Shown piece by piece: positions 10,412-57,004 of a DNA stretch of 64,000 nucleotides (its first letter is position 1; each line of letters begins with the position of its first letter). Source of the stretch: Polaribacter sp. L3A8 (lineage in GTDB: Bacteria; Bacteroidota; Bacteroidia; Flavobacteriales; Flavobacteriaceae); contig NZ_CP047026.1 of NCBI RefSeq assembly GCF_009796785.1, positions 4,012,501-4,076,500 of the forward strand. The letters are read 5' to 3'. Under the pieces are notes generated by a model. It saw nothing but the letters and a program-made list of their open reading frames with translations, was not told the DNA's origin and searched no databases. Both the position numbers and the translations under genes were made by a program.

Positions 10412-10487
10412 TTAAAGGATAATATTTTTTTTAGGTTTGTGCTTACAGAATTTGTTTTTTAATGACGTTTTTATTAAAATATAAAGT

Positions 10488-10532: not shown

Positions 10533-10556
10533 AATATATATGGTTTTTTAAATTTT

Positions 10557-11264: not shown

Positions 11265-11362
11265 AATCTTTGTTTTTTTAAATTTTTATTTTTTCCTCGA
11301 AAAAAAGAAAGCCTGCTAAAATAGTTCTTTTTCTACATTTCGAATGCTTGCAATGTGATAAT

Positions 11363-14185: not shown

Positions 14186-14365
14186 ATGAGATGTTTTTTT
14201 TGGAAAAAAGCAAAGTTAAAGAAACCAATTTTAATTTAAGGGCGATTGTAGAATGCTTTTAATATTAAACTTTTTATAAAATAATATTTCATTAAAAAGA
14301 GCAATTTAAAAAAGGTTGTTATCAAACCATAAAATAGTATATTGCATTTAAATATTACAATGTAA

Positions 14366-14587: not shown

Positions 14588-14590
14588 TAT

Positions 14591-15595
14591 ATGAAGATAA
14601 ACGTATTAGAATCTAAAATAAATATAACTTTATTTTTAGTTGTTACTATTTTATCCCTGGGTACAATTGGCTATATGGTGTTGTCTCACTATACTTTTAT
14701 AGATGCCTTGTATATGACGGTAATAACTGTAACTACTGTGGGGTTTGGTGAGTTAAGACCATTTTCTCCAGAAGAAAAAGTTTTTACAATTTTTTTAATT
14801 TTAACCAGTATTACTGTTTTTGGGTATGCCGTTTCAGCTTTCTCAGAGTATTTAGTTAGCGGTAAATTATTTGAACATTTTAAGCATAGAAAAGTGGAGA
14901 AGAAAATAGCCAGTTTAAAAGGACATACCATTGTTTGTGGATATGGAAGAAACGGTAAACAAGCAATTTTAAAATTAAAAAATTACAACAAAGACTTTGT
15001 TGTTGTCGAGAAAAATAAAGAAAGAACAGAGGTTTTAGATGCCGCAGAAGTTTTAAATATTAATGGAGATGCTACTTTAGACGAGACATTGTTACAGGCA
15101 GGTATAGAAAATGCAGCTTTTTTAATAACGGCATTGCCTTCCGATGCTAATAATTTATTTGTTGTTTTAACAGCAAGTCAGTTAAATAAAGATTGCAAGG
15201 TAATAAGTAGAGCTTCTAATGAGTCTTCTCTTAGTAAACTGAAAATTGCAGGAGCAAGTAATGTAATTATGCCAGACAAGTTAGGTGGAGATCATATGGC
15301 TTCTTTAGTTACTACACCAGATGTTATAGAATTTGTAGATCGGTTAACAATTGAAGGAGAAACAACGGCAAATTTAGAGGAAGTTGCAGTAGATGATTTA
15401 CCTAAAAAATATATTAATAAAACGCTTCTAGATTTAGATTTAAGAAGACAAACAGGTTGTACTGTTATAGGTTTTATTAGTCCAAGTAAAGAATATATTA
15501 TAAATCCAGAAGCAGATTGTAAGCTTATAGAAGGTTCGCATTTAATTGTTCTGGGTAGGCCGAATCAAATTATCAAATTAAGAGAGTTATTTTAA
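14591..15595 (+). CDS. Potassium channel with RCK (TrkA-N and TrkA-C) domains
   Basis: The 334-residue product is a two-transmembrane potassium channel. Membrane helices lie at about residues 12-32 and 65-85, with the selectivity filter TVGFG at residues 49-53 between them. A cytoplasmic RCK domain follows, with the nucleotide-binding motif GYGRNG at residues 117-122 and an acidic strand-end residue in VVVEKNK. The last 80 residues form a TrkA-C domain. Such channels open in response to nucleotides or ions bound by the RCK ring. It is translationally close to the upstream PspC-like gene. Confidence 0.92.
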   Translation: MKINVLESKINITLFLVVTILSLGTIGYMVLSHYTFIDALYMTVITVTTVGFGELRPFSPEEKVFTIFLILTSITVFGYAVSAFSEYLVSGKLFEHFKHRKVEKKIASLKGHTIVCGYGRNGKQAILKLKNYNKDFVVVEKNKERTEVLDAAEVLNINGDATLDETLLQAGIENAAFLITALPSDANNLFVVLTASQLNKDCKVISRASNESSLSKLKIAGASNVIMPDKLGGDHMASLVTTPDVIEFVDRLTIEGETTANLEEVAVDDLPKKYINKTLLDLDLRRQTGCTVIGFISPSKEYIINPEADCKLIEGSHLIVLGRPNQIIKLRELF

Positions 15596-15693
15596 TAAAA
15601 AGAAAATAAGGTGAGTTTTAACTTTTATGCATTGGTGTTTTTGTAAAATTCATGCTCACAATATAAATTATAAAAAAAGGAATTTATTTATTT

Positions 15694-16593
15694 ATGAATA
15701 AAGTAGTTATTACAGGTAGTAACGGGTTGCTAGGTCAGTCTTTATTAAATTTATTACTTCAAGATAAAGAGATCTATGAAGTTTATGGTTTTTCAAGAGG
15801 AGAGAATAGAAGTGGTAGAAATGATTTTTCTTACGTTTCAATTGATATTACAGAAGAAGATAACCTTAAGAAAGCGTTGTTAGAAATTCAACCAAATTTC
15901 ATTATTAATACAGCAGCAATGACTCAGGTTGATGATTGCGAAAATAATAAAGAAGCGTGTGATTTATTAAATATAACTGTAGTTAAATGGTTGTCTGAAG
16001 TTTCATCAACCATAAATGCACATTTAATTCATATTTCTACAGATTTTATTTTTGATGGAATAAAAGGGAACTATAAAGAAACAGATACACCTAACCCATT
16101 AAGTTATTATGGATTATCAAAATTGAAATCAGAAGCACTTTTATTAGATTCAAAAATTGACTATACCATTTTAAGAACTATTTTGGTTTATGGTAAAGTG
16201 TTTGATATGAGCCGAAGTAATATTGTACTTTGGGTAAAAAGCATGTTAGAAAAGGGAAAGGAAGTTACTATTGTAGATGATCAGTTTAGAACGCCTACAT
16301 ATGTAGAAGATTTAGCATTAGCGTGTAAGATTTCTATAGATAAAAAAGCCACCGGAATTTTTAATATTTCTTCAAATGAATTATTGAGTGTTTATGAGAT
16401 AGCGCAACAAATTGCATATGTTTTTAATTTGGATAGAAGTTTGGTTAAACCAATATCTACATCCACTTTAAATCAAACTGCGGCAAGACCCGTAAAAACA
16501 GGTTTCGATTTATCAAAAACAAATAAAGTATTAGAGTTTTATCCTAAATCTTTTAAAGAAGATTTACATAGATTTAAGAATATCATAATGTAA
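15694..16593 (+). CDS. RmlD-like NAD(P)-dependent sugar nucleotide reductase
   Basis: The 299-residue product is a short-chain dehydrogenase/reductase of the extended RmlD type (dTDP-4-dehydrorhamnose reductase family). The dinucleotide-binding motif GSNGLLG lies at residues 8-14. The region INTAAMTQVDDCE and the catalytic YxxxK (YGLSK near residue 148) match RmlD. No other rhamnose-pathway genes are adjacent, so it may act on another sugar nucleotide or as a general reductase. It stands alone on the plus strand ahead of the symporter gene. Confidence 0.85.
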   Translation: MNKVVITGSNGLLGQSLLNLLLQDKEIYEVYGFSRGENRSGRNDFSYVSIDITEEDNLKKALLEIQPNFIINTAAMTQVDDCENNKEACDLLNITVVKWLSEVSSTINAHLIHISTDFIFDGIKGNYKETDTPNPLSYYGLSKLKSEALLLDSKIDYTILRTILVYGKVFDMSRSNIVLWVKSMLEKGKEVTIVDDQFRTPTYVEDLALACKISIDKKATGIFNISSNELLSVYEIAQQIAYVFNLDRSLVKPISTSTLNQTAARPVKTGFDLSKTNKVLEFYPKSFKEDLHRFKNIIM

Positions 16594-16680
16594 AAAACAC
16601 ATTTAACGTTCAAAAGTTGTCAAAAGAGCAATTTTTTAGGATATTGCGACCTACTAATTAAATATTAATTAAAATTAATT

Positions 16681-18291
16681 ATGAATAAAAAACTTCTTTC
16701 GTTGCTGTTATTAGCAATCCCAATGTTCTCTTTTGCACAAGAAATGTCCATGGATGAAAAAATAGAGGCACAATTTAAACCGTTTGCAGATGCCGTTAGT
16801 TCAGTAGTTTTTTACCCTGTTTCAATCGTAGGTATAGATGTTCCAATCGTAATTATTATATTATTACTTGGAGCTCTTTTTTTTACATTTTATTTTAAAT
16901 TTGCTAATATAACCTTGATGGGGGTGGCTTTTCATGCAACAAGAGGGAAATATGATAAGATAGATCATCATTCTGTTGATGAAGCTGCTGGAGATCCAAC
17001 TCCTGGTGGAGATGTTTTTGAAAGCGTACAAGCAGAAGGTGTTGTGGGTGAGGTTACGCATTTTCAGGCCTTAACAGCCGCATTATCTGCAACTGTAGGT
17101 TTAGGTAATATTGCTGGTGTTGCGGTTGCTATTGCAATTGGTGGACCCGGTGCTACTATATGGATGATTGTAGCTGGTTTTTTAGGAATGTCTACAAAAT
17201 TAGTAGAAGCTACTTTAGGTGTAAAATATAGAGAAGTTGGCGAAGATGGAAAAATTTATGGTGGTCCAATGTATTACCTTAAGAAAGGATTAAAAGAAAA
17301 AAACTTAGGTGGTTTGGGTAAAGTTTTAGCTGGAGCCTATGCTGTTTTTGTAATCGGAGGTTCTTTTGGTGGTGGAAATATGTTTCAAGCTAACCAAGCG
17401 GCTGCTCAATTTAAACAACTTTTTGGTCTTGATTCTGGGTTTTTATTTGGAATTATAATGGCTGTATTAGTAGGTGTAGTTATTATTGGAGGGATTAAAA
17501 GAATAGGGCAAGTAACAGAAAAAATAGTTCCATTTATGGGAATTATGTTTGTAGGAGCTTCTTTAGTGATTATTGCCATGAATTTAACAATATTACCAGA
17601 TGCTATAGTTCAAATCTGGAACGGAGCTTTTAATGAAACTTCAGTTGTTGGTGGTTTAATAGGGGTAATGATTGTTGGTTTTCAAAGAGCAGCTTTTTCT
17701 AATGAGGCAGGTGTTGGTTCTGCATCTATTGCACATGCAGCAGTAAAAACAAGATTTCCTGCAAGTGAAGGAATTGTAGCTTCTATTGGTCCGTTTGTAG
17801 ATACTGTAATCATCTGTACAATGACTGCTTTGGTTATTGTGGTAACGAATTTAAAGAGTAATTTATTTAATTATTCAAATTTAGATGAAGGAGGTAATGT
17901 AATTATGAATAGTAATGGAGAGCATTTAGGAGGTGTAGATTTAACCTCAGTAGCTTTTGATTCTGCAATTCCAAATTTTTCTATTTTACTTACTATAGCT
18001 GTAATTTTATTTGCTTTTTCTACGATGCTTTCTTGGTCGTATTACGGAATACAAGGATGGAAATATTTATTTGGAAAAAGTAAAATAGTTGACATCACTT
18101 ATAAAGCATTATTCTTAATTTTTGTAATAATTGGTGCGTCTTCTAGTTTAGGTTCTGTTATTGAATTTTCTGACGCAATGATCTTTGCAATGGTGTTTCC
18201 GAATGTCATTGGTTTATTCTTACTGGCTCCAAAAGTAAAAGTTGAGTTAAAAAGGTATTTAACTGCAATCGGTCATAAAAACAAAAAATAA
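16681..18291 (+). CDS. Alanine/glycine:cation symporter (AGCS family)
   Basis: The 536-residue product is a secondary transporter of the AGCS family, which takes up alanine or glycine with sodium or protons. It begins with a hydrophobic leader (MNKKLLSLLLLAIPMFSFAQE) typical of the longer Bacteroidota members and then has about ten membrane helices. Family-type motifs include the segment TVGLGNIAGVAVAIAIGGPG and the later FQRAAFSNEAGVGSASIAH. The next gene starts 11 bases after its stop, so the two may be co-transcribed. Confidence 0.92.
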   Translation: MNKKLLSLLLLAIPMFSFAQEMSMDEKIEAQFKPFADAVSSVVFYPVSIVGIDVPIVIIILLLGALFFTFYFKFANITLMGVAFHATRGKYDKIDHHSVDEAAGDPTPGGDVFESVQAEGVVGEVTHFQALTAALSATVGLGNIAGVAVAIAIGGPGATIWMIVAGFLGMSTKLVEATLGVKYREVGEDGKIYGGPMYYLKKGLKEKNLGGLGKVLAGAYAVFVIGGSFGGGNMFQANQAAAQFKQLFGLDSGFLFGIIMAVLVGVVIIGGIKRIGQVTEKIVPFMGIMFVGASLVIIAMNLTILPDAIVQIWNGAFNETSVVGGLIGVMIVGFQRAAFSNEAGVGSASIAHAAVKTRFPASEGIVASIGPFVDTVIICTMTALVIVVTNLKSNLFNYSNLDEGGNVIMNSNGEHLGGVDLTSVAFDSAIPNFSILLTIAVILFAFSTMLSWSYYGIQGWKYLFGKSKIVDITYKALFLIFVIIGASSSLGSVIEFSDAMIFAMVFPNVIGLFLLAPKVKVELKRYLTAIGHKNKK

Positions 18292-20617: not shown

Positions 20618-20697
20618 GGCGTTCCCTAAAAAGGTCGGGCTTTTCACTATATCTTTTTGTAAAAAACAAAAAGGATGCCGTTGCAATCCCTAACGCA
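20618..20697. repeat. Folded intergenic element next to the tandem repeat
   Basis: An 80-base segment can fold into nested stems. An outer stem pairs GCGTT at 20619-20623 with AACGC at 20692-20696, and an inner stem pairs CTTTTTGT at 20653-20660 with ACAAAAAG at 20666-20673 around an A-loop. From memory it resembles an interspersed intergenic repeat seen in Flavobacteriaceae, but only one copy is in this window. A function is not known. Confidence 0.5.
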
Positions 20698-20730
20698 AAT
20701 AGCATATTTAAAATATAATGCAATAACTAA

Positions 20731-42662: not shown

Positions 42663-45600
42663 TTAAGAATTTTCTACAATTGCAATTTCTTCTTCTGTTA
42701 AACCATATAATTTATAAACCATTTGATCTATTTCTTTTTCTAAACTACTGGTGTCTGCTTCTGGATTTTCTTTTTTAAGGGACAATATTTCGTTTACTAA
42801 AAAAGCTAATTTATCTTGTGATTCATTTACTGAATCCTTAATAGGAAGTAAATCAATATTGTGAATAGCTACGGCAGTAGTGAATTCTGCACCCAAATTG
42901 AAGGTATTATCATAATAAAAATCCATTAGTTTAGAATTCATTAATGATAATATATATTCAATCTTATATTTATTATTATTAATTATTGTACCATTTATAG
43001 TTTGCATATAATAAAAACCAGAATAATCGATAGTCCCTTTTATTTTGCCAGAAATATGTTGCGTAATAATCTTTTCTTCTACTTCAAAATTCTCTCTTTT
43101 TCTACTTCGAGTTAAATGTTTAGTTCCATCAATATATTCAATATATTCAATAGCGCTTTTTGGAGTGTAATATTTATCTATATTTTTACCTCTTAAAATA
43201 GGTTTATAAATTTCATTTTTTTTCTCCTTTGAAATAAATTTTTTCTCATTACCGGCTATTATGCCTTGAAGAGTTTCTGAAATTGAACCTAAGTTAATAC
43301 ATTGATTTTTAATCTTTTTCAATAATGAAATTTTATTTTCATTTAAATAGATATTAAACCTTTTACCTATACTTTCTTTAAAAACAGACTGCTTAATTGA
43401 TTTAGGTTTTACATTTTTATCTATATACTTTACAAAATTATAAATTTCAATATCATTAATATCTGAGATAACCTTATCTAAAATTAAGATAACAACTTCA
43501 CTTGTTACATCTTCAAATACTCCAAGTTTAAAACTTAATAATTCTTTAATCGACGTTTTATTTAATATAAATTCTCTAATCAATAAATACTCATTTGAGC
43601 GTATCAAGTTTCTAGGGACTATAAAACTAGATTTAGCTTTTTGATTTGATATATTATAGAATTTTTCAATAAACAATGAAAATAAGTTTACTCTATTAGA
43701 AGCAGTTTTGAAGTTTAATTTCAGATATTCAACCTGTTTTTTTGAAATTTCTCTCATATCTAAATATGGCGGATTTCCAATAATAGTATCAAAACCAACA
43801 TACGCACCCTCATCACTTAAAACCTCTGGAAACTCAAAGCGCCATTCAAAAGCATTATGATAAATAGCGTTGTTTACTATTTCTTCTTTTTCTAAATAAG
43901 CTTTTTCTGCTTTGATTTTTAATTTTTTAAGCTCGTCTTTTTCTGTTTTTTTAATCTTTTCACCAAAAGTTTTTAAATTGTTTTGTCTTTCTTGTTCGTT
44001 TATTAATTTCCCTTGTGCTTTTTCAAAATTCACTAAAAAGGATTTATCTAAAGTACTTTTAAAGTTATTTTTAACTTCATTAATTATTTTTAATACCTCT
44101 CTTTTACGCTCTTTGCTATTGGTTTCTTTATACTCAGTTACAGCATTTTTATAATCTGTAAAAGTATAATTAAGGTCTTTATTTTTAAAAGCTTCTTTTA
44201 AATCGTCATCTAATTTAAATCGGCTAATTAAAGAGTTACCACATTTAATATTAATATCAATATTTGGTAGTGTTTGTAGTCTGTTTTTAGGCGTGTAGTA
44301 TGCGTTTTTAAGCAGTTCTATCCATAAACGAAGCCTACATATCTTTACAGAATTTGGGTTGATATCTACACCAAATAAACAGTTTTCTATAAGGGTTTGT
44401 TTCTCGTGAAATAAAGTATGTTGCACTCTTGCACTTTCTTTATCTGTAGGGTTGTATTCAAATAATGCACCTTTATCATCAATTACATATAATTCATCAT
44501 TTACAATCTCTATATCGCAACGCAAAGGCATTCCTTTGGCATCCGTTAAAATTTTTAATTCGTTTTTTATAACAATTAACTCATTTAAGGCGCTTACTAA
44601 AAAGTGTCCAGAACCTACTGCTGGGTCACAAATTTTAATACTATTTACAATGTTGTTTAATCTCTGTAAATCATCAACTTTAAATAATCTACTACAATAA
44701 GATTGCAAATCTTCAAATGTTTCTATTGTGGTTTCTTCTTGTTCTTTAAATTTTTGAATTACAGTTCTTCTTATCGTTTCTCTACACATATACATTGTTA
44801 TATATGCAGGTGTATAAAATGAACCTTCTTTGTAACCGTTTATCTTCTCGAAAATTAAACCGAGTACAGAAGCGTTAATTAAAGATTTGGTTTCTTTTTC
44901 ATCTTCTATACCTTCTGTACCATCTGTAGCAAAATTATAGGCATCTAAGAACTTAAAGAGGTATTCTAATGTGGTAAGTTTTCCTTTTTGCTTTTTACCG
45001 TTAGCATCTTTTAAAACAGTACCGCTATAAATTGCTATTTCATCATTATTTAAAGCAGATATTTCAAAAGCTTCCTCTTCTAATGTATTGCGCTCAAATA
45101 AAGAACTATTTAAGTAAGGTATATCTTTATACTTGTCTTTATATTTTGGGTGTCTTTGGTCTTCTTGTTTTGCTAATGCAGAAAAGAATAAATCATTTAA
45201 ATCATCAAAACCATTTATAAATTTTGCGTTTAAGAATTTATACTTTTCATCGTTTTGATGATAGGTTAATAATTGAGATTCTAATAATTTTAAGAATAAA
45301 ATTCTATTTACCCACGTTAAGCATAATTCTAAACCTGCATTAAAAGGCTTGTCTACACCATTAGGAATACTTTTTATATTAGATAAGTAATCTCTATCTT
45401 CTAAATGAAATATTGTGTTTTCTAATAAAGAAGCGTAATCTCTGTCTTTAACTTCTTTTCTGTTTATTATCTTTTTCCCTTTGTCTTTTACTTCTTCTAA
45501 ACCAATAATGTGCAATAACTCATTATAGAATGTTTTGTTTAATTGGTTACTGTCATTACCAAAAGGATGCCCTAGAATATGTACATCAGAAAATATTTTA

Positions 45601-46268
45601 TATAATGTGTTTAGGTTGCCATCTTTTAGTTTAGATAAATTGGTCTTGGTAAAATCTAAATGAACAAAAGGCAAATCTTGCTCTATTTCTGCAATGTATT
45701 TTTTAGCTATTTCATTGTAGAATAATTCGTTTTTAGTAGTGTCTTTTAAACCATCTCTAAAATCTTTATATTCTTTTATTAAGGCTTTATTTTTAAAGAA
45801 GTAATTGTAAAAATCTTCACTTTTAAACAAATACCATTCATAACCATTTGTAGCAATTAGGTGTTTTATATTATTGTTGTTATTATCTAATCTTTCTCTT
45901 AAATAATACAATAATAACTCTTGTAATGCTTTTCTATTAAGATTATCTTCTCTTAAAAACTCGGCTTTGTTACTTGGTTTTTTTGCTTCTATAATTACAC
46001 CTATATCAGATGTTGGTTTATCTTCTAAATAAATTGCTAAATCTATTCTGTCTTTAGTGTTGATGTAATTATTAGTGTAAAAAGTAGTATTAAAAAAAGT
46101 TGTAAAATGAGATTTAATATGTTCCTCACTTTCTCCATTATCGTCACTTAATTTTACAGCATTAATACAATCTTGTAATTGTACTATAAAGTTTGTAACG
46201 TCTTTTCTTAAAGGTTTGTGTTTTCTATATGCAGGATTTAATGCTTTTCTGGTATTTGTTTTGTTCAT
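42663..46268 (-). CDS. Type IIG restriction-modification enzyme (Eco57I-like, nuclease-methyltransferase fusion)
   Basis: The 1201-residue product joins all parts of a type IIG system. A PD-(D/E)xK-like nuclease is seen at residues 76-96 (DRIDLAIY, then DIGVIIEAKKP with E94 and K96). The methyltransferase has the S-adenosylmethionine motif CDPAVGSGHF near residue 547 and the catalytic NPPY at about 832-835, as in N6-adenine methylases. The C-terminal 350 residues, with KPILRGKNIDKYY, form the target-recognition part. The enzyme would cut unmodified invading DNA and methylate the host's. It has no stops or shifts and looks functional. The recognition sequence cannot be read from the protein. 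Confidence 0.9.
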   Translation of the reverse strand: MNKTNTRKALNPAYRKHKPLRKDVTNFIVQLQDCINAVKLSDDNGESEEHIKSHFTTFFNTTFYTNNYINTKDRIDLAIYLEDKPTSDIGVIIEAKKPSNKAEFLREDNLNRKALQELLLYYLRERLDNNNNNIKHLIATNGYEWYLFKSEDFYNYFFKNKALIKEYKDFRDGLKDTTKNELFYNEIAKKYIAEIEQDLPFVHLDFTKTNLSKLKDGNLNTLYKIFSDVHILGHPFGNDSNQLNKTFYNELLHIIGLEEVKDKGKKIINRKEVKDRDYASLLENTIFHLEDRDYLSNIKSIPNGVDKPFNAGLELCLTWVNRILFLKLLESQLLTYHQNDEKYKFLNAKFINGFDDLNDLFFSALAKQEDQRHPKYKDKYKDIPYLNSSLFERNTLEEEAFEISALNNDEIAIYSGTVLKDANGKKQKGKLTTLEYLFKFLDAYNFATDGTEGIEDEKETKSLINASVLGLIFEKINGYKEGSFYTPAYITMYMCRETIRRTVIQKFKEQEETTIETFEDLQSYCSRLFKVDDLQRLNNIVNSIKICDPAVGSGHFLVSALNELIVIKNELKILTDAKGMPLRCDIEIVNDELYVIDDKGALFEYNPTDKESARVQHTLFHEKQTLIENCLFGVDINPNSVKICRLRLWIELLKNAYYTPKNRLQTLPNIDINIKCGNSLISRFKLDDDLKEAFKNKDLNYTFTDYKNAVTEYKETNSKERKREVLKIINEVKNNFKSTLDKSFLVNFEKAQGKLINEQERQNNLKTFGEKIKKTEKDELKKLKIKAEKAYLEKEEIVNNAIYHNAFEWRFEFPEVLSDEGAYVGFDTIIGNPPYLDMREISKKQVEYLKLNFKTASNRVNLFSLFIEKFYNISNQKAKSSFIVPRNLIRSNEYLLIREFILNKTSIKELLSFKLGVFEDVTSEVVILILDKVISDINDIEIYNFVKYIDKNVKPKSIKQSVFKESIGKRFNIYLNENKISLLKKIKNQCINLGSISETLQGIIAGNEKKFISKEKKNEIYKPILRGKNIDKYYTPKSAIEYIEYIDGTKHLTRSRKRENFEVEEKIITQHISGKIKGTIDYSGFYYMQTINGTIINNNKYKIEYILSLMNSKLMDFYYDNTFNLGAEFTTAVAIHNIDLLPIKDSVNESQDKLAFLVNEILSLKKENPEADTSSLEKEIDQMVYKLYGLTEEEIAIVENS

Positions 46269-46514: not shown

Positions 46515-47926
46515 GGATCAACACAAAAAGTTGTGGAGTAAATTAAAAAGCATGAACTTTGCTTTCTAATAAACCTCTATTTTGGATACTTCAATTGAAC
46601 TAACAAAACTATTATTACCAGAAATTCTTGTTGACTATTTTAAACTAACTAAGCACGAAGTTAAAAATGGAGAACTTCATTTCCATTTCACAGAATTAAA
46701 TACGATTCCTGAAGAATTCAAAGCACTTAAATTAAATTCTAAAGGTTTTTTTCCTGAAGCTACTATTCAAGATTTTCCAATTCGAGGTAAAAACGTTTTT
46801 CTACATGTTATTAGACGACGTTGGGTTGAGGAAAATTCTAAAAAAGTAGTTACAAGAGATTGGCAATTAGTAGCAAAAGGCACTAGAATAACTAGTGAAT
46901 TTGCTGCTTTTTTTAAAAGATATCAGTCAGTAATAACGCCACTAGCACAAGTACTGTAGCTAATTTCTACGGGGTAAATCCCAGAAGTTTACAAAGACAG
47001 TATAAGGATTATTTAAGTGATTTTAAAGCTTGGGATCAACAGAAGCACGCAACAGACTAGTTATTGTTTGCAAAGAATTTAGGGACTCACTTATCACTTG
47101 ATGAAACTGCCTTTTCTAACGGTGATTTATATACCATAATAACAAATAAATTAGCTAAAGGAAAGAAAGGCGCAATAGTAGCCATGATCAAAGGAACTAA
47201 AGCTGAAGTTGTCATAAAATTCCTTTAAAACACAGGAAGAAAGTCAGGGAAGTAACCTTGGATATGGCGGGAAATATGGGGCTTATAGTCAAGAAATCCT
47301 TTCCAAACGCTGCCTTAGTAATAGATCGTTTTCACGTGCAAAAATTAGCATTAGATGCACTGCAAGAAATAAGAATTAAACATAGATGGGAAGCGATTGA
47401 TGCTGAGAATGATGCCATTGAAAACACCAGAAATAAATCTTTAAAATACCCCAAAACTATTACCTAATGGAGATACTCTCAAACAACTATTAGCTAGAAG
47501 CAGATATCTATTATATAAATCAAGTAGTAAATGGACTAAAAATCAAGCCATAAGAGCAGAAATACTGTTTGAAAAATATCCGGATATAGAGAAAGCATAC
47601 AAGTTATGTCAAAATCTATCTTGGATATTCAATAACACTACAGACAAAACATCAGCACTTATAAGACTTGCTAAATGGGATGAAAAAGTAAGACAGGCAC
47701 ACTTTAAAAGCTTCAACACTATAGCTAGAACGATGTCGATACATTATAAAAACATCTTAAACTATTTTGATAATCGAAGTACGAATGCATCAGCAGAATC
47801 ATTCAATGCTAAAATTAAAGCCTTTAGAGCACAGTTTAGAGGCGTCAGAAATGTGGATTTTTTCTTATATAGACTTACTACTATTTTTGCGTAATTCTTA
47901 AATCCCACAACTTTTTGACTTGATCC
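46515..47926 (+). mobile_element. ISL3-type insertion sequence (ISAon1-like), complete ends but dead
   Basis: The 1412-base element has 22-bp inverted repeats that agree at 20 positions: GGATCAACACAAAAAGTTGT at the left (46515) and the complement of its partner at 47905-47926. Direct repeats TTAAAGTT flank it at 46507-46514 and 47927-47934. An 8-bp duplication fits the ISL3 family. The transposase inside is broken in several places, so the element cannot move on its own. Confidence 0.92.
46582..47894 (+). pseudogene. Broken ISL3-type (ISAon1-like) transposase
   Basis: The frame starts at TTG (DTSIELTKLLLPEILVDY) and runs 125 codons to a stop. It continues in another frame as VANFYGVNPRSLQRQYKDYL, meets a TAG near 47060 (HATD then stop), and goes on with SLDETAFSNGDLYTI. 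A further shift near 47225 leads to DMAGNMGLIVKKSFPNAALV and VIDRFHVQKLA, and another near 47460 leads to the C-terminus ending FFLYRLTTIFA. The pieces together cover a whole transposase. At least three frameshifts and one stop show that it is long dead. Confidence 0.9.
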
Positions 47927-48809: not shown

Positions 48810-50660
48810 ATGATTTTAAAATACAAATGGCTAAGGCAATTAAGTATCGTTATTTCTTTTTTAGTATTGCTTTTTTCTTGCTCTAAACAAGATACTATTG
48901 GTCTAGATATAGAAAAAAAACTAGGTAGGTTAGATAGTATTACCCAAACACAACCAGAACAAACCCTTTTAGAATTAGATGGTTTATTGCAAAATTATAA
49001 AGATTTAACTTCTTTAGAGCAGGCCATGTTATTGTTTAAAAAAGGAGAGGTTTTGTATTTAAATCTTAAATATCAAGCAGCATTAAATGCGCATTTAAAA
49101 GCATATCAATTATTTATAGAATTAAACGACACCTACAATCAGGGGCGATGTTTAATTACATTAAGTGGTGCATCACTACATATTGGAGATGTAGAAACAT
49201 CGCAAGTTTATGCGCTTAAAGCATTGCATTTGGCACAATTAATAAAGGACAAACGTATAGAAGGTAAAGCGTATAATCAGTTATTTAATCTTCATTTTAA
49301 ATTAAAAGATTACAACAAAGCACTGTCTTATATAAAAGTAACCGATAGTTTGTTTGCTAAAGGAATTGATACGGCTTCTATTATATCGATAAAAAATAAC
49401 AAAGCCAGTGTTTACTTACAGCTAAAAGAATACAACAAAGCTTTAAAAAGTTATTCTGAAGCAATGCAGTTAAGTCATGCTACAGGAAACCCAAAAATAT
49501 TAGCAAGTGTTTTAAATAATATAGGGTATACTTACATAGAAGCTGGCAAATACCAAAGGGCCGAAAAATTTCTAAGAGGAGCGGCTACTTTAAATAACAA
49601 TATAAAAGATATAAATGCTGCACCTTATAAAGGTTTGGGTAACCTGTTTTTATTACAATCCAAAAATGACTCCGCAGCAATTAATTATAAGAAAGCATTA
49701 AATATTTATGTTTCTAATAATAATGCTAAGGATGAAATAGAGGTAAGAGAAAAACTTATTGCAATAGCAATTATGTCTGCAGATTATGTAAAAGCGTTAG
49801 ACAACCAAATAGTAAGAGATAGTTTGCAATTAAACGTAAGTAGATTAGAACAAAACAGGCTTTTAAATTTTGCAAATGTTACTTATAAGGTAAAACAAAA
49901 GGAAACAGAAATTAATCATCAAAAAGAAATTAATAGTAGAAACCATTGGCTTTTAATAAGTACCATATTGTTGTTTATCTTGTTAGCTATTGCTACTGCT
50001 TTTTATATTTACAATACAAAACTAAGAGCAGCTAATAAGGCATCTAAATTAGAACAACGTTTATTACGCATACAAATGAATCCTCATTTTATCTTTAACA
50101 CCTTGGCTGCGATTCAGAATATCACTTTAGAAGGAAACCCGATAAAATCATCTAATTATATTGCAAAATTTTCTAAGCTGATTCGGCAAAATTTCGATTA
50201 TGTTAGAAAAGAAGCTATTTCTTTAGATAAAGAGATTGCCATGATTTCTAATTATATAGAAACACAACAATTACGTTTTAATAATGTTTTTACGTATGCT
50301 GTTGAGGTTGATAATGCTATTGATGCGACTAAAATACAAGTGCCACCAATGTTGTTGCAACCTTTTTTAGAAAATGCCATAGAATATGGATTAAAAGAGA
50401 AGAAAAAAGGAGGGAAGCTTCTATTGAAAATAGAAAAGGAAGCGGAAGAATTGTTGTTTGTTATTTTAGATAATGGAGTAGGTAGATCATCTAAAGCTAA
50501 GCAAGAAGAATTAACGGAAGATTTACACGCTACAGCTATTTTTAAAGAACGTTTAAAAATGCGAAAAAAAGGAGAAGAGAAATCCTTTATTCTTCAAGAT
50601 TTATTTGATAAAAACAACAAGCCTTCTGGAACAAAAGTATTTTTTAAATTAAAACTATAA
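48810..50660 (+). CDS. Lipoprotein TPR sensor histidine kinase (LytS/YehU type)
   Basis: The 616-residue product begins with a lipoprotein signal ending LFSC at residues 21-24. Residues 40-340 form tetratricopeptide repeats, presumably in the periplasm. A membrane helix at about 380-401 leads to the His_kinase domain with the phosphoacceptor H426 in NPHFIFN and an ATPase domain with an N-box (NAIEYG) and a G-box (DNGVG). Its stop overlaps the next start by one base (TAATG), so it is translationally coupled to the response regulator. The lipid anchor plus an internal membrane helix is unusual, though typical of this Bacteroidota group. The ligand is unknown. Confidence 0.9.
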   Translation: MILKYKWLRQLSIVISFLVLLFSCSKQDTIGLDIEKKLGRLDSITQTQPEQTLLELDGLLQNYKDLTSLEQAMLLFKKGEVLYLNLKYQAALNAHLKAYQLFIELNDTYNQGRCLITLSGASLHIGDVETSQVYALKALHLAQLIKDKRIEGKAYNQLFNLHFKLKDYNKALSYIKVTDSLFAKGIDTASIISIKNNKASVYLQLKEYNKALKSYSEAMQLSHATGNPKILASVLNNIGYTYIEAGKYQRAEKFLRGAATLNNNIKDINAAPYKGLGNLFLLQSKNDSAAINYKKALNIYVSNNNAKDEIEVREKLIAIAIMSADYVKALDNQIVRDSLQLNVSRLEQNRLLNFANVTYKVKQKETEINHQKEINSRNHWLLISTILLFILLAIATAFYIYNTKLRAANKASKLEQRLLRIQMNPHFIFNTLAAIQNITLEGNPIKSSNYIAKFSKLIRQNFDYVRKEAISLDKEIAMISNYIETQQLRFNNVFTYAVEVDNAIDATKIQVPPMLLQPFLENAIEYGLKEKKKGGKLLLKIEKEAEELLFVILDNGVGRSSKAKQEELTEDLHATAIFKERLKMRKKGEEKSFILQDLFDKNNKPSGTKVFFKLKL

Positions 50661-51397
50661 TGATAAAAGCAGTAATAATAGAAGACGAGTTTAATGCTTT
50701 AAATACATTAGATAAACTGATAAAATATACTCAGAAAGATATTGAGGTTATTGCAAAAATAGATACTGTTACAGATGCTATTTCGTTTCTAAAAAAGGAA
50801 ACGATAGATTTAGTTTTTTTAGATATAGAATTAATTGGCGGTAATGCATTTCAGATTTTAGAAGCTTTAGATAGCATTACTTTTAAAATAATTTTTACCA
50901 CTGCGTATGATGAGTTTGCTATTAAAGCCATAAAGTTTGATACGATAGATTATTTATTAAAGCCGATAGATTCAGAAGAATTATCAGAATGTATAGATCG
51001 CTTTAGAATTGGCTATAAAAAAGAACAAGTTTATAAAAATGCTTTAGACAAGGTTTCTGAAATTAATAAAAAAGAAATTGACAAAACCTTGTTAATTAAA
51101 ACTGCGGATGCTCAGTATTTTTTGCAAACAAAAGATATTGTACGTTGCCAATCAGACGGAGCGTATACTGTTTTTCATACAGTTGATAAAAAAATAATGA
51201 GTGCTCGTAATTTAAAATACTACGAGAACATTTTAAGTGAACACACCTTTGTACGCGTGCATCAATCTCATTTAGTAAATATAAAATACATAAAAAAGGT
51301 GAATGCTAACAATACGGTTCACTTAACAAACCAAGAAATAATACCTGTTGCTACACGTAAAAAATCGTATTTAAAACAGGTTTTAGATAGCTTATAA
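50660..51397 (+). CDS. LytTR-family response regulator
   Basis: The 245-residue product has a receiver domain with the phosphoacceptor D55 (LVFLDIELIGG) and the conserved lysine in DYLLKPID, and a C-terminal LytTR DNA-binding domain from about residue 145 (IVRCQSDGAY, VHQSHLVN). It is the partner of the histidine kinase whose stop overlaps its start. Five genes on the same strand follow after 108 bases. They are the obvious candidates for its targets, though no LytTR site could be assigned with confidence in that gap. Confidence 0.92.
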   Translation: MIKAVIIEDEFNALNTLDKLIKYTQKDIEVIAKIDTVTDAISFLKKETIDLVFLDIELIGGNAFQILEALDSITFKIIFTTAYDEFAIKAIKFDTIDYLLKPIDSEELSECIDRFRIGYKKEQVYKNALDKVSEINKKEIDKTLLIKTADAQYFLQTKDIVRCQSDGAYTVFHTVDKKIMSARNLKYYENILSEHTFVRVHQSHLVNIKYIKKVNANNTVHLTNQEIIPVATRKKSYLKQVLDSL

Positions 51398-51504
51398 ATG
51401 CGAATATAAAACGAAAAAGATCAAATGTAAAACGGTTTTAAAAACATCCTAATCAAGTCTTAGTTTTGAGGTATACAAAGAAATAACCTTTAAATTAAAA
51501 TATC

Positions 51505-51915
51505 ATGGGATTAAAAGAAAACAGATTTACAAAAACATTTCAAGAAGCACAATTTCTAGAATTAAAAGCACAAATAATAGCAGCTGCAGGTTTTGATGTA
51601 CCTTTAAACATTGAATGGAGCACTTTATTTGAAGATCGTTTTTTACACTTATACAACGATTCGTACCCTAAAATATATTTTTTACCACTTGTAGCCGCTT
51701 TTAAGTCTATTGCAGCAGATAAAATGGGGAAAGAAGCTTTAGCAGAAAGCTTAAAAGAAATACACATATTAAATACCAAAGACCACCACAACCCTACGAA
51801 TGCGTATGCATTTTCTAATGGAGTTTTAACTGTAGACCATAGTCCTATTTTAAATGCAGATGATGTTGATAGCAGGACGAAAGTATTGGTTAATTTATTA
51901 GAAAATAATTTATAA
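51505..51915 (+). CDS. Uncharacterised protein, stand-alone copy of a domain shared with the gene at 53652
   Basis: The 136-residue product has no family that I recognise. It aligns over its full length with the N-terminal 137 residues of the product at 53652. The shared core is MGLKE at the start, AAGF-VPL, EDRF-HLYND--PKIYFLPL, and HSP-(I/V)-NAD near the end. There is no signal peptide or membrane helix. It is therefore a single-domain version of the same module, presumably cytosolic. The role is unknown. It is the first gene after the two-component pair. Confidence 0.75.
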   Translation: MGLKENRFTKTFQEAQFLELKAQIIAAAGFDVPLNIEWSTLFEDRFLHLYNDSYPKIYFLPLVAAFKSIAADKMGKEALAESLKEIHILNTKDHHNPTNAYAFSNGVLTVDHSPILNADDVDSRTKVLVNLLENNL

Positions 51916-51956
51916 GCAAAGGCTAAGGCTTTGTGTAATTGGTAAATAATATTGGT

Positions 51957-52928
51957 ATGTATAAATTTATTTTTTATAGTATTTTAATCGGAATTCTATT
52001 CTTGCTGGTTGGTTGTGGCGTTTCTAATATGAAAGCTAAAAAAGGGTTTGTAGCCTACTTAAAAGAGCATCATCATAACAAATATGAGATTTTAACTTTT
52101 AAAAGAAACTTTAATGCAGCAAACATGAATCCTAATTTGTTTTGGGTAGAATTAGCACTTAAAGAAAACCGTAACATTGTTATAAATTTTGAATGGAATG
52201 CAAAAGACAATGCACTTTATGTTCCGTTTCATTATACAGAAGATAGAAGTATAGAGGCCTTAACTCATTATCAAAAACAAGAAATTTTATTAAGAGAAGC
52301 GTTGTACCAAGCATTAGATAAGGCTGTTTTAAATATGGATGTTAATGTATTTAATCATACAATTAGTATTGGTTTAGAATCTGAACCTACATTTAATAAG
52401 TTTCAATATTTTTCAAATAAAATAGTTAGCGTTTTAGATAAATATCCAAATACCTGGACAAGAGAAGCGCATGTAGAATTTAAAATTAAAGAAGAAGCAA
52501 AAGGTTTTTATGAGTTGATTGTTAAGCCCAATACATTTAATGATAGCAACGAATCTTATAGATACAAACAGCACGCTATTGTTGCTAATAATTACGGGTC
52601 TATAAAAGCAGTACATATAAACCATATTGTAGAACAAGAATTTTCTAAACCAAATTCTCCTGTGTATTTGAGTAACATTTGGGTCAATCAAAAAGATTTA
52701 AATTCATTTTACATCGCTTTCGAAAAACACGAGCCATTAAAAAGCCCCGAAAAAAACAAGAATTTAACAGAAGGTGTTGGTATGTATGTCGTGAAAATGA
52801 GTTACCCTAATTTAGAGAAGGAAACCTTAACCTATTACGATTACAAAACAACTTCTAGAGACGGAATTTTTCTGTATCTCATAGACCAATTACCAGAAGA
52901 CTACCAATTTCTTATAGAACACTCATAA
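51957..52928 (+). CDS. Uncharacterised lipoprotein
   Basis: The 323-residue product starts with a lipoprotein signal (MYKFIFYSILIGILFLLVGC) with the lipid-anchor cysteine after LVG. The frame could begin at a TTG at 51939, but the ATG at 51957 gives a better signal peptide. The rest is soluble, with no domain that I recognise. It lies in a row with the module genes on both sides, 41 bases behind the first and 15 bases before the next. A part in the envelope is implied by the anchor; the rest is unknown. Confidence 0.75.
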   Translation: MYKFIFYSILIGILFLLVGCGVSNMKAKKGFVAYLKEHHHNKYEILTFKRNFNAANMNPNLFWVELALKENRNIVINFEWNAKDNALYVPFHYTEDRSIEALTHYQKQEILLREALYQALDKAVLNMDVNVFNHTISIGLESEPTFNKFQYFSNKIVSVLDKYPNTWTREAHVEFKIKEEAKGFYELIVKPNTFNDSNESYRYKQHAIVANNYGSIKAVHINHIVEQEFSKPNSPVYLSNIWVNQKDLNSFYIAFEKHEPLKSPEKNKNLTEGVGMYVVKMSYPNLEKETLTYYDYKTTSRDGIFLYLIDQLPEDYQFLIEHS

Positions 52929-52943
52929 TATCTAATTTACATC

Positions 52944-53600
52944 ATGGAAAAAACATCATACTATAAAGCGTTTGTAGCCCAAACGCCAGAGGAAATCTTA
53001 CGATCTATTTTTAAGAAAAAAGAAGCTGTTTTAATTGCTATTTCTTTAAATAATGGAACGTATCTAGAAGGTGTAATTCTAGATTTAAAGGAAGATCATA
53101 ACCACAATAAATCGGTTTGTATGCTTTCTCAGAATGAAGATGTACTCTTTTTTAATACGCACAGTATTGTGTCTATTATAGTAAAACAACCTAAAAAAAT
53201 GGTTGTTGAATTATCTAAAGGAGCTATTAGCAGGCCCATATCATCAGAAAATGAAAACCTAACAGTCTTGCAATTAAAACGCTGGTTGCATAGTGAAAAA
53301 AGCCTATTAGGAAATCAAATAAAAGAGTTTAATGTTGATAAACTTCCGCTAGGAGAATTAAACAATCGATTAAATATTAAAGATGTTTTTACCGCATTAA
53401 AAAGTACTGTTGATGAAATAACAAAAGATATTTTAGGTAAAGAAGCATGGCAAGGTATTGATACAATTGTACTGCAACAAGAAAATAAGTTAGGTGTTGA
53501 TAATCAATCTGGAGTATTAACAATATCAATTGCAATTGATAAAGCTTTACCAGAAAACTTATTGAATATTTTAGAAGAAAAATTACTTCAAATATTATAA
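52944..53600 (+). CDS. Uncharacterised protein with an Hfq/Sm-like N-terminal segment
   Basis: The 218-residue product has no family that I recognise. Residues 28-80 read like an Sm/Hfq fold: ISLNNGTYLEGVILDL recalls the Sm1 pattern of Hfq (L-x-N-G-x-x-L-x-G), and FNTHSIVSI recalls its Sm2 motif (Y-K-H-A-I-S-T-V), with N37, G38 and H73 at matching places. The segment between is longer than in Hfq. The C-terminal 135 residues are of unknown kind. An RNA-binding role would follow if the fold is right, but this rests on motif reading alone. Confidence 0.6.
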   Translation: MEKTSYYKAFVAQTPEEILRSIFKKKEAVLIAISLNNGTYLEGVILDLKEDHNHNKSVCMLSQNEDVLFFNTHSIVSIIVKQPKKMVVELSKGAISRPISSENENLTVLQLKRWLHSEKSLLGNQIKEFNVDKLPLGELNNRLNIKDVFTALKSTVDEITKDILGKEAWQGIDTIVLQQENKLGVDNQSGVLTISIAIDKALPENLLNILEEKLLQIL

Positions 53601-53651
53601 AACAAACAAAAAAATCATTTTAAACAATTAATAAATTATAAAATAAAAATT

Positions 53652-54809
53652 ATGGGACTTAAAGAAAAAAGAATTATCCAAGCCTTTAAAAAAGAATTAT
53701 TTCCGGCATTAGAAACAGAAATTAATAAAGCAGCAGGTTTTGCCGTTCCTTTAGATATTTCTTGGAACACTTTAATGGAAGATCGTTTCTCTCACTTGTA
53801 CAATGATACGTTTCCTAAAATATATTTTTTACCATTAATAGAAGCTTTTAAAGCTATTTGTGTAGATGAAATGGGCGTTGAACTTTTAAAAGCCGGATTA
53901 AAAAACGTAGTTATTATTAATGAAAACGAAGAACACAATTTAGAACGTGCAATTACTTTTGAAGAAGGAGTTTTAAAAATAAATCATAGTCCTGTTATAA
54001 ATGCCGATGCTGTAGATAGAAAAACAACTCGCATTATTTCTTTATTAGAAGAAAAGTTAGAAGAATTTGCAGAAGGAACTCCAGAAGCAGCATCTACGGA
54101 AACAGAAAGCGCACAAGAAGCATCAGCAGAAACGGCAAAAGTAACTATTCAAGAATTATATAACCAATCTGTTGTAGTTTCTTTAGAAAAACAAGAGGTG
54201 TTTGGAGAAATGGTAGAAGGCTTAGGTTGGAGTTGCGATATGTTAGAAGGAAAATTAACGTACGGAGACGATAAAGTTTTTGACATTCAGGTGTTAGGTA
54301 CTTATTCCGAAAATGAAAAAAGTTGGTTATGGGCTTGGGCAAATACACAAAGTGGTATTCCAGAAAAGTTTTTACAAACAGCTTTAGCAGCAAAAGCAAT
54401 AGGAGAGGCTTATCAAATTGAAGATTTTGTTACATCTAAAAAAGAATTTAGTTCAGATCCGGGAGTTTATTTTTCTACAATAATTTCTGCAATGGTAAAA
54501 GAAAGTTGTTACGTACCATTAACTTTTAAAGGCTTAACGGTTTATGTTACCATAACATCTGCAGAAGCAGATAGCAAAGCAAGAACAGTGCCTGCTTTAA
54601 TTTGTTCTCATTTTACAAAGGTAGCCGCAAACTATACGTTTCCTCATAAATACAGTTTGTATTTTTATTTAAAAGGAAAAGGATACGAAGTAGAATTGCC
54701 AGGTAATAATATTGTTGCTAAAAAAGAGGATGATCAAATTCTTGGAATTTTCGACTTAAAAGGTCGATTAATGAAAATATCTAATTCAAAATTAACTGTT
54801 CAAGCCTAA
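53652..54809 (+). CDS. Uncharacterised two-part protein: shared module plus DUF6882-like domain
   Basis: The 385-residue product has three parts. Residues 1-137 are the module shared with the gene at 51505. Residues 138-163 are an acidic, alanine-rich linker. Residues 165-385 resemble DUF6882, with the tryptophan-rich SWLWAWAN at 224-231 and LGTYSENEKS before it. No signal peptide is seen. It ends six bases before the metallopeptidase gene and 51 bases behind the Hfq-like gene. The function is not known; the fusion suggests that the shared module brings partners together. Confidence 0.7.
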   Translation: MGLKEKRIIQAFKKELFPALETEINKAAGFAVPLDISWNTLMEDRFSHLYNDTFPKIYFLPLIEAFKAICVDEMGVELLKAGLKNVVIINENEEHNLERAITFEEGVLKINHSPVINADAVDRKTTRIISLLEEKLEEFAEGTPEAASTETESAQEASAETAKVTIQELYNQSVVVSLEKQEVFGEMVEGLGWSCDMLEGKLTYGDDKVFDIQVLGTYSENEKSWLWAWANTQSGIPEKFLQTALAAKAIGEAYQIEDFVTSKKEFSSDPGVYFSTIISAMVKESCYVPLTFKGLTVYVTITSAEADSKARTVPALICSHFTKVAANYTFPHKYSLYFYLKGKGYEVELPGNNIVAKKEDDQILGIFDLKGRLMKISNSKLTVQA

Positions 54810-54815
54810 AATAGT

Positions 54816-56306
54816 ATGTCATATATATCAGAAACACTTTCAGAATTAGAAAAAGAACATCAAGCTGCTTTAAATGCAGCCCAAGAAAAAATGTTAACCG
54901 ATTTAAATGATGCACAAGCATCAGGAAATTTCGAAAAAATACAAGAAGCCAGTGTTGTATTTCAAAATATAACAACAGAATTGGCAGCAGAATACACCAA
55001 ACGTATTGAAGAAATAAATGCTTTAAACCATAAAGCAATTGTAGATACAGCACCAGAAATTTATACGAATAACAGGGCCGATATCGATTTAAATTTATTA
55101 GTATATGATGGTGATAGAGATTACGTAATTGCTTTTCAGCAAGACGAGTTGATACAAAAAACGTTAGAAAAGGTAAACAAAAATAGTGGTAAATTTAAGT
55201 CTAGAAAACATTTGTTAAAATCTAGTTTAAGGCTTACAAAAACCTTAGCACCAATGCTTCATGAAATTGGTGAGCATTGTAAAAGTACCTTGAAATTAAA
55301 AGCAGATATTGAGTTTTTTGTGTATCAAGGAGATACTTTTAACGCTTCTTGCTATCCGCCAGATGAGAATAAATTATACATTATTTTATCCTCAGGAGTC
55401 TTAGAGCGTTTTTCTAAAGAAGAGTTAACTTTTGTAGTTGGTCATGAAATAGGCCATGTGCTTTTTGAACACTTCGATTATCCGGTAAGACAAATATTAG
55501 ATACAGGAGAAAATGATTTAGCGCCTATCCATGCCATGAAATTGTATGCTTGGAACAGAAATGCAGAAATTAGTGCAGATAGAGCAGGTTTATTATGTTG
55601 TCAAAACTTTGAAGCTGTAGGGCGTACTTTCTTTAAATTATCGTCTGGTGTAACCACAGATTCTTTAGACTTTCAATTAAATGCTTACATAGAGCAATTT
55701 GTAGATTTAGAAGAGGTTTTAAACGATTCTAATTTAGATCCATCAGATTGGTATAGTACTCATCCTTTTAGTCCTTTAAGAATTAAAGCTCTAGAACTTT
55801 TTAATAAAAGTGAAACGTATGCCGCTTTTAATACGTCTGTTTCTGGAGAAATTACAGAAGAAGCTATGGAGGTAGAAATTAAACGTATTATGTCTTTAAT
55901 GGAACCAGAAAACTTAGAAGAAGAAGGAGAACATTCTGAAAAAATACAACGTTTAATGTTTTTAGGAGGTTATTTAATATCTAATGCCGATGGTGTTGTA
56001 GACGATTCTGAAATACAAGCATTAAGTAGTATTGTGGCGCCTAAAGTTTTTGCCAATTGTATGATGACTATAAAAGGGCTTACAGAAGATGAAATGATTG
56101 ATGAGGTGCAACAACTTACTAAAGATTTAGATGTTGTTTTGTCTGTAATGCAAAAGCTAAATATATTAAGAGATTTATCTATTATTTCTTATGCCGATGG
56201 AGAAATAGATGATAGTGAAGTAAATGTTTTATACAACTTGGCAAGACTTTTATATATCAATTCAGATTTTATAGATCGTGTTATTGGGGATGCACAAGGA
56301 GTCTAA
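54816..56306 (+). CDS. Cytosolic M48-like metallopeptidase fused to a TerB-like domain
   Basis: The 496-residue product has a coiled-coil-like N-terminus (residues 1-75), an M48-type peptidase domain with HEIGH at 210-214 and a third zinc ligand E251 in NAEISADRAG, and the M48 end motif THPFSPLRIKALE at about 315. Residues 377-492 look like a TerB-type bundle: NADGVVDDSEIQ and YADGEIDDSEVN are two acidic repeats of the kind that bind metal. There is no signal peptide or membrane helix, unlike HtpX or Oma1, so it acts in the cytosol. It closes the locus and is followed by a terminator. Confidence 0.8.
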   Translation: MSYISETLSELEKEHQAALNAAQEKMLTDLNDAQASGNFEKIQEASVVFQNITTELAAEYTKRIEEINALNHKAIVDTAPEIYTNNRADIDLNLLVYDGDRDYVIAFQQDELIQKTLEKVNKNSGKFKSRKHLLKSSLRLTKTLAPMLHEIGEHCKSTLKLKADIEFFVYQGDTFNASCYPPDENKLYIILSSGVLERFSKEELTFVVGHEIGHVLFEHFDYPVRQILDTGENDLAPIHAMKLYAWNRNAEISADRAGLLCCQNFEAVGRTFFKLSSGVTTDSLDFQLNAYIEQFVDLEEVLNDSNLDPSDWYSTHPFSPLRIKALELFNKSETYAAFNTSVSGEITEEAMEVEIKRIMSLMEPENLEEEGEHSEKIQRLMFLGGYLISNADGVVDDSEIQALSSIVAPKVFANCMMTIKGLTEDEMIDEVQQLTKDLDVVLSVMQKLNILRDLSIISYADGEIDDSEVNVLYNLARLLYINSDFIDRVIGDAQGV

Positions 56307-56361
56307 TAAAAAGTTTATAAGTGCTGTTTAAGAATTGGGGGATTCTTACTACAGTAATAAG

Positions 56362-56392
56362 AAGGGTGGTAATTTTAAATTACTGCCTTTTT
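56362..56392 (+). terminator. Terminator of the 51505-56306 gene row
   Basis: A 12-bp stem with three G-U pairs (AAGGGTGGTAAT with ATTACTGCCTTT) is followed by a T-rich tail. It resembles the terminator at 59173. Confidence 0.75.
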
Positions 56393-56395: not shown

Positions 56396-57004
56396 TTAAA
56401 AACCTAAAGCTTCTAAAACTTCTAATTTTGGTAATTCTTTACTTAATATGCTGTCAACAAAAATTCCAGATTTGTAAGTACCATCTCTAAAATAGAGAAT
56501 ACCAAATCCACTCCATATTCCATTTTTATATTCACCAATATATTTTATTACATTTTTATAATTGTTGTTACTAAAAGGTTTGTAGTTAGACCATTTTGTA
56601 ATTCCAAAACCATTTTTAACAGCATCTTGGTAAGTGCCCATAAAACTATAATCAAGACTTTGAGATAAGGTCATTCCGTTTGGTTTTGTGTTTTTCCAAT
56701 TGCTAAAAATATAACTATTGTTTTTTGCTTTAAATTGAATTCCGTATCCCGTATAGTTTTCGTTTTTACCTAAGCCAGCATACCAACCACCATCTTCTAG
56801 TTCCCAAGAAACCATTTTGTTTTTAGAAAGGTTATCGGTACTATTTAAAGAACCAAATAACCAATACCAAGTGTTGGTATATCTTTTTAGTTGAGGTTGC
56901 TTTTGGTAATAATCTTCTGCTTTTTTCTGTTGAACTTCGGTTTGTGCTACACTAGAATTGGTTGAGATACATATTAAAATTAATAGTAATAATAGGCTTT
57001 TCAT
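56396..57004 (-). CDS. Exported MORN-repeat protein
   Basis: The 202-residue product has a signal peptide (MKSLLLLLILICISTNSSVA) and MORN-like repeats in its second half, for example YIGEYKNGIWSGFGILYFRD, with weaker ones before it (TYQDAVKNGFGITKW). MORN repeats form flat beta-hairpin sheets and often mediate contacts. The gene is convergent with the preceding locus, with only the shared terminator region between, so it is a separate transcript. The function is unknown. Confidence 0.75.
   Translation of the reverse strand: MKSLLLLLILICISTNSSVAQTEVQQKKAEDYYQKQPQLKRYTNTWYWLFGSLNSTDNLSKNKMVSWELEDGGWYAGLGKNENYTGYGIQFKAKNNSYIFSNWKNTKPNGMTLSQSLDYSFMGTYQDAVKNGFGITKWSNYKPFSNNNYKNVIKYIGEYKNGIWSGFGILYFRDGTYKSGIFVDSILSKELPKLEVLEALGF

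Follow-up and report, generated by a model that had tools for sequence, protein, structure and literature searches.

What biological task might unite a sensor kinase, a response regulator and the five genes that follow them, when three of the seven products (C, D and E below) match no family above the cut-off in Pfam or NCBIfam and nothing in PADLOC? This question is raised by a compact cassette of plus-strand genes at 48810-56306 of a 64,000-nucleotide stretch of the Polaribacter sp. L3A8 genome (hereafter, the window; positions 4,012,501 to 4,076,500 of NZ_CP047026.1). An initial annotation, made from the sequence alone, had recognized seven genes and proposed that they form a single pathway; the seven-gene observation is confirmed by the listing of open reading frames, and the GC content of the locus is ordinary (0.300 versus 0.304). 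In order, the genes, denoted here A to G, encode a TPR histidine kinase, a LytTR response regulator, a stand-alone protein module that we call X, an optional membrane-anchored protein, a protein combining an Sm/Hfq-like barrel with an X-like domain, a fusion of X with DUF6882, and an M48 metallopeptidase fused to TerB. The locus appears to pair a two-component switch with an operon dedicated to it, and the reading we favor, with a probability of about 0.4, is a cytosolic protease or quality-control complex, scaffolded by X, that an envelope signal triggers through that switch. The gene anatomy and the regulatory layout are well supported, and the biochemical function of the cassette is what we infer. 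The proposal of one pathway is, thus, partly supported: it is favored by the conserved gene order, the promoter-like region before the payload genes and the recurrence of one module in all but one of the four soluble products, whereas its RNA-binding component does not go beyond a fold.

Most of the comparisons draw on a table of 29 loci, which includes the window, G034 and three additional loci; the scan of named genomes with an alignment of F yielded 75 loci, from the best 80 of 444 confirmed stretches, and 51 of these (L041-L091), which match over the DUF6882 part, stand outside the 29-locus count. Gene A (48810..50660, +) encodes a 616-residue protein with TPR repeats and a His_kinase domain (PF06580), and gene B (50660..51397, +) a 245-residue protein with Response_reg and LytTR domains, so that, by Pfam, a receiver joined to a LytTR domain sits beside a kinase of the His_kinase class, the composition of a LytTR two-component system. 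By eye, the kinase has an N-terminal lipobox cysteine, found in 27 of 28 aligned kinases (not in L032), and one membrane span near residues 380-402; the phospho-acceptor H426, along with N522 and D554, is invariant in all 28, and the alignment of the region upstream of the kinase gene contains a conserved AT-rich block. The kinase resembles FimS of Porphyromonas (NCBIfam NF053520) in being a TPR-bearing sensor kinase of Bacteroidota, but scores only 43.6 bits against an equivalog cut-off of 600. A precedent for the layout is YpdA/YpdB-yhjX of Escherichia coli, described in an excerpt of PMC4847170 as a LytS/LytTR pair that drives one target from a direct repeat; the shared features are a LytTR regulator and a tandem repeat at one promoter, whereas in the window the sensor is a TPR lipoprotein-like kinase and the payload is a five-gene operon.

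The genes of the cassette are separated by -1 to 51 base pairs (bp), with the exception of the gap between the regulator and X, which spans 107 bp; given this promoter-like gap, the five payload genes, C to G, probably have their own transcript. The alignment of this gap in 26 of the 29 loci (L013, L031 and L032 were left out) contains a conserved tandem direct repeat with a 21-bp period (51401..51433, +, in the window), which we propose to be the LytTR site, and the box TAGTTTTG (51461..51468, +), a candidate for the -7 element in the promoter of the payload. LytTR sites, according to the same excerpt of PMC4847170, consist of two repeats of 9-11 nucleotides lying 11-13 nucleotides apart, and the 21-bp period of the predicted site in the window agrees with this spacing. 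In a strict recount, TAGTTTTG is exact in 21 of the 26 gaps, the AAAAC of the second repeat lies exactly 32 bp before the box in 18, and, alongside that spacing, the first repeat lies 21 bp further upstream in 17. The deviating gaps include those of L029, L038, L039 and L040, with variant boxes and the repeat in register (by eye), L018 (GAAAC), L021 (shifted by one), L160 (degenerate), L020 (first repeat shifted by one), and L027, which carries TAGATTTG. When a pattern built from the same gap sequences was run against six genomes with up to three mismatches allowed and a reversed pattern as the control, a repeat without mismatches was found once each in G000, G392, G069 and G059, always at the cassette, and G034 has its own site with one mismatch. 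Several observations weigh against the favored reading. In G079, the site at the cassette has two mismatches and an unrelated place only one; the six genomes together contain 83 pattern matches versus 39 for the control (21 versus 13 in G000), so that weaker sites for the regulator elsewhere in these genomes are possible; and the conserved G in TAGTTTTG does not fit TAHHTTTG, the revised consensus for Flavobacterium. The Bacteroidota -7 consensus is TANNTTTG, and in Flavobacterium its third and fourth positions are almost never G (PMC6847099). This unusual G may signify dependence on an activator.

The payload is proposed to be held together by X. Protein C (51505..51915, +; 136 residues, no Pfam family) is 52% identical to the start of F (53652..54809, +), which bears out the claim that two of the genes share one unknown module, and the module recurs in E, so that it is present in three of the four soluble payload proteins (C, E and F). 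The initial annotation missed this third copy, as it did the DUF6882 domain of F, the wide spread of X and the occurrence of X with E without the protease. In F, X occupies residues 1-140 and DUF6882 (PF21813, E-value 9e-25) residues 167-302 by Pfam, or 166-380 in a structural model with a mean predicted local distance difference test (pLDDT) score of 87.5. The second domain of E, at about residues 108-218, has the same order of secondary structure elements as X in the F model; hhalign joins X and E with a probability of 96.6 (E-value 5e-10; 96.3 and 1.9e-9 in a second comparison), and an X profile also matches the E-like genes of G770 (2e-8) and G185 (9e-4). In the three Cellulophaga loci (L038-L040), the kinase, regulator and X genes are accompanied by a separate DUF6882 gene in each case (3/3), and this separation within one locus of domains that are fused in F suggests that X and DUF6882 are physically linked.

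Database searches with the X profile recovered 978 proteins, with no Pfam domain among the 120 listed, and tblastn of F against plasmids recovered nine records, one of which matches DUF6882 and eight the X part, the latter from haloarchaea, Methylobacterium, Roseomonas, Shinella and Aureibacter. Profile searches of PDB gave no match for X and one chance-like match each for F and D. DUF6882 is named in none of the open-licence papers searched. The idea that it belongs to Rhs or polymorphic toxins was rejected, the large neighbors in L042 and L080 (1442 and 1446 residues) being CoA-enzyme activases. Thirteen small uncharacterized giant-virus proteins match the F model (Foldseek E-value at or below 0.001), probably over DUF6882. 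Variation around the module was also observed: in Tenacibaculum (L034, L035, L036), F is 612 residues long, and in the close relative P0041 a domain of leucine-rich repeats (PF13306) separates X from DUF6882. The X proteins of L201, L202 and L224 have, by eye, apparent signal peptides, and X may, therefore, also act outside the cytoplasm.

Protein E (52944..53600, +; 218 residues) raises the question of whether the cassette acts on RNA. Its model (mean pLDDT 82.1) has a helix at residues 15-24 followed by five strands up to residue 80, a barrel of about residues 15-82 that is predicted to adopt the Sm fold; 49 of the 50 PDB chains listed by Foldseek for this barrel are Hfq or SmAP, the other being YaeO (best E-value 3.5e-3, probability 1.00; none at or below 0.001), so that the Hfq/Sm-like segment of the initial annotation is backed by the model and by the structural search. 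This fold, together with a profile search of PDB in which Sm D1 is the sole family retrieved (all 7 sequences, at weak E-values of 0.47-1.4), is what speaks for an RNA-level regulator in which E would be an Hfq-like RNA chaperone, X proteins would steer it to its targets and the protease would reset the system. However, the scores of YaeO, WYL domains and designed SH3 barrels tie with those of Hfq/Sm, and RNA binding, therefore, does not follow from the fold. Hfq proteins have a conserved KH signature in Sm2, whereas in E that signature is not conserved (30-row alignment, by eye), and E differs further in its additional X-like domain. Hfq is not known to occur in Bacteroidota. Taken together, we consider the RNA-level explanation unlikely.

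The candidate effector is G (54816..56306, +), in which Pfam finds Peptidase_M48 (64.7 bits, over the cut-off) and, at residues 387-484, TerB (44 bits versus a cut-off of 24.4); with the HEIGH and NAEISAD motifs invariant in 13 of 13 rows, the protein shows the M48 model, the HExxH motif and the downstream glutamate expected of this family. No signal peptide or membrane span was seen in G by eye. Although its HExxH and distal glutamate motifs are those of the M48 peptidases HtpX and LoiP, G is soluble (by eye), fused to TerB and far below the cut-offs of the HtpX and LoiP models of NCBIfam; the weak sequence matches in PDB are to a TerB-family protein (E-value 0.28) and HtpX (0.39). TerB domains reportedly belong to Ter stress-response systems, where they have TerC/TerD-type partners; the TerB domain of G is a point of likeness to these systems, but no TerC or TerD match was obtained by Pfam among the nine proteins scanned (the seven genes and two neighbors). 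A TerB gene in a prophage of Tenacibaculum larymnensis is mentioned in PMC10013915. The G profile has matches in 40 of 395 genomes of the phylum, two of them full-length (G000 and G059). Beyond the cassette, a further M48-TerB fusion (by Pfam), 27% identical to G over 377 residues, is found in L162 (G666), where its neighbors in the stretch 1387-16781 include a response regulator as well as tubulin-like and VWA proteins, possibly another undescribed system; L163 has M48 only (Pfam).

The remaining payload protein, D (51954..52928, +; 324 residues from the ATG), could also start at a TTG at 51939. The view of D as a lipoprotein holds for the window, where the lipobox cysteine is present, but 2 of the 10 orthologues listed (L020 and L033) lack it by eye, so that "membrane-anchored" is the safer term.

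Are these genes, then, parts of one machine or independent genes under common control? The order kinase-regulator-X-(D)-E-F-G is retained on one strand in 23 of the 29 loci (with X called at only 96 residues in L017), and the genes stay together across Flavobacteriaceae, whereas scattered genes would have spoken against a common pathway; the four relatives examined keep the kinase, regulator, X, E, F and G in the same order, with D in G034 only, and the flanks of the cassette differ between genera. X was found in 19 of 397 genomes of the family, and a wider profile detected it in 11 of 395 genomes of the phylum; G059, G069 and G392 have two copies each. Some of the evidence weighs against a shared complex. 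The loci were collected through F or X, which are, accordingly, present by construction; L161 keeps kinase-regulator-X-D-G without E and F, so that G does not need these two proteins there; L031 (Aquimarina sediminis) has X, a short E (99 residues) and F, but no G, and its upstream kinase and regulator genes are only weakly similar; and no structural match accounts for X or DUF6882. An accessory stress operon, a set of independent genes co-regulated by one stress regulator, would accommodate such separate losses, as well as the intact D (319 residues or more) in only 9 of the 29 loci and its remnants of 92-110 residues in 3, the permuted order A-B-E-F-X-G in Saccharicrinis (L032), and the sparse occurrence of F, which is full-length in just 5 of 59 near genomes and weakly and partially matched in another two. 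Yet it is hard to see, without interaction, why three products should share one module and why X should be fused to neighboring domains, and we hold the operon of independent genes to be rather improbable.

The proposed complex around X gains a different perspective from the 20 remote X loci (L147-L158 and L218-L225, with L220 cut by a contig end). An E-like gene adjoins X in 9 of these and lies one gene away in 4 more (13/20); 7 of the 13 E-like genes were matched, at 40-50 bits, by a profile that predates their discovery and 4 by a wider profile that does not contain them, whereas those of L151 and L157 were placed in the wider profile by position, so that their scores follow by construction and the call is supported by matches to the X profile. 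A D-like gene is found near X in 6 of the 20 (L153-L156, L158 and L221), and 11 contain a NarL/LuxR-like regulator (starting with IADDH or IVDDH, by eye); Pfam confirms the regulator in L153 and a TPR kinase in L153 and L221. These stretches showed no M48-TerB or DUF6882 gene, with a single 19-bit match to G in L149, which also counts against the favored reading. Thus, X-E is probably the core, and we infer from these comparisons that it is the older one, with D as a frequent partner, an exchangeable two-component partner, and M48-TerB and DUF6882 as later additions. A large TPR protein and a DUF1266-type protein recur in seven remote loci (L151, L153-L156, L158 and L221; confirmed by Pfam in L151 and L153), perhaps as a second conserved gene set.

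In L153 (8411-8812, -; 28.3 bits), and similarly in L154, L155 and L158, a TssD/Hcp-like protein is encoded between X and E. Such an arrangement could be taken to mean that the cassette belongs to a secretion system of the contractile or type VI-like kind, and TssD matches were, indeed, obtained in 14 of 23 genomes tested, 12 of them over the cut-off, including the cassette holders G022, G027, G059 and G069. However, there are none in G000 or in the cassette holders G017, G392, G079, G199 and G307; G386 has one below the cut-off; and G158, G072 and G314 hold only the gene near E, which may, therefore, be an orphan Hcp-fold protein serving X-E. PF05943 was found in 0 of the 23 genomes, even the TssD-rich ones, and so does not discriminate. 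Participation in secretion appears very improbable.

A role in anti-phage defence or another kind of conflict, with the protease as a latent effector, is suggested by the patchy distribution of the cassette, by the neighborhood of the L162 fusion described above, by a DUF6882 gene that follows a type I restriction subunit in L055, and by the presence in the window, some 2.5 kb upstream of the cassette, of a type IIG restriction enzyme. Defence, one of the functions among which the initial annotation did not choose, nevertheless finds little support, the alternatives of stress response and quality control being retained here: with the PADLOC-DB 2.0.0 library (2023), the seven cassette proteins gave generic or weak hits only (the best being TPR, 6.6e-5; receiver, 7e-4; capP, 0.012) and five remote X, E, D and DUF6882 proteins none, G and X had no match in 50,697 phage records, and the flanks of L159 and L161 contain, by eye, ribosomal-protein-like genes, with no search for defence genes made in the other flanks. 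An anti-phage function is, accordingly, quite unlikely in our assessment. The type IIG enzyme is a restriction-methyltransferase of 1201 residues (42663-46268, -; PADLOC 809 bits; Eco57I and TaqI_C domains).

The cassette is probably closed by a terminator, a hairpin followed by a U-run at 56360..56392 (+). The hairpin (-13.9 kcal/mol, z-score -1.94) folds better than most shuffles, 7 of 200 doing at least as well; a consensus scan does not list it. Directly after it, a MORN-repeat protein is encoded on the opposite strand (56396-57004, -), and, with such a protein beside G also in Maribacter (L020 and L033; 3/29 loci in all), it may travel with the cassette. For the left flank, which contains a tRNA and a GNAT gene, some DNA match was obtained in 38 of 39 genomes, in many cases to the tRNA only, and four of these (G004, G019, G002 and G012) were chosen. 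All four retain GNAT, at 59-69% identity. In G004 and G012, the next gene is orthologous between the two (61% over 286 residues) and absent from the window, and G019 and G002 have unrelated genes there. G004, G019 and G002 have no F match, and G012 has a partial F-like piece on another contig. Broken transposase pieces occupy 46582-47467 (+), with DDE_Tnp_ISL3 in 47258-47467, a stretch kept in G012, and a Flavo-1 RNA (Rfam RF01705, 59.2 bits) lies at 20629-20701 (-).

Under the favored reading, that of a protease or quality-control complex scaffolded by X, the TPR domain of the kinase would sense an envelope signal and the kinase would phosphorylate the LytTR regulator, as expected from their families. 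The regulator would then bind the 21-bp tandem repeat in the gap separating its gene from X and activate the payload promoter, a step consistent with the conserved footprint and the layout of the locus. The products would form a soluble complex held by X through the module shared by its members, with C as free X, E contributing the Sm-like barrel and F contributing DUF6882, and D serving as an optional envelope-side accessory. G would act as effector: a metal-dependent protease whose substrates, damaged or specific proteins, are removed or processed, and whose TerB domain is a regulatory part responsive to metal or stress. The likely role would be protein quality control under envelope or metal stress, and the cassette probably protects the cell under stress. 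A broader, distinctly speculative and rather doubtful extension is that X is an unrecognized docking domain that organizes a new class of signal-controlled cytosolic protein-handling machines: the minimal form would comprise X and a partner of the Sm-X type, in many cases controlled by a TPR two-component switch, the fullest would add DUF6882 and M48-TerB under a LytTR switch, and the stand-alone X proteins of haloarchaea, myxobacteria and alphaproteobacteria, of which some have, by eye, signal peptides, would represent further uses of the domain.

The switch is of a known kind, and the payload is without a described counterpart that we could find: the literature searches, which covered open-licence papers, produced no published system of the same make-up, as the initial annotation had surmised, and no account of the locus appears among the papers listed for TerB with M48 or for LytTR kinases with TPR in Bacteroidetes. 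The cassette offers a testable role for X and for DUF6882, and, with a strong candidate for the target promoter at hand, the regulon can be tested directly. Should the complex prove real, marine Bacteroidota would possess a cytosolic protease system that is controlled by an envelope signal and includes an Sm-like subunit.

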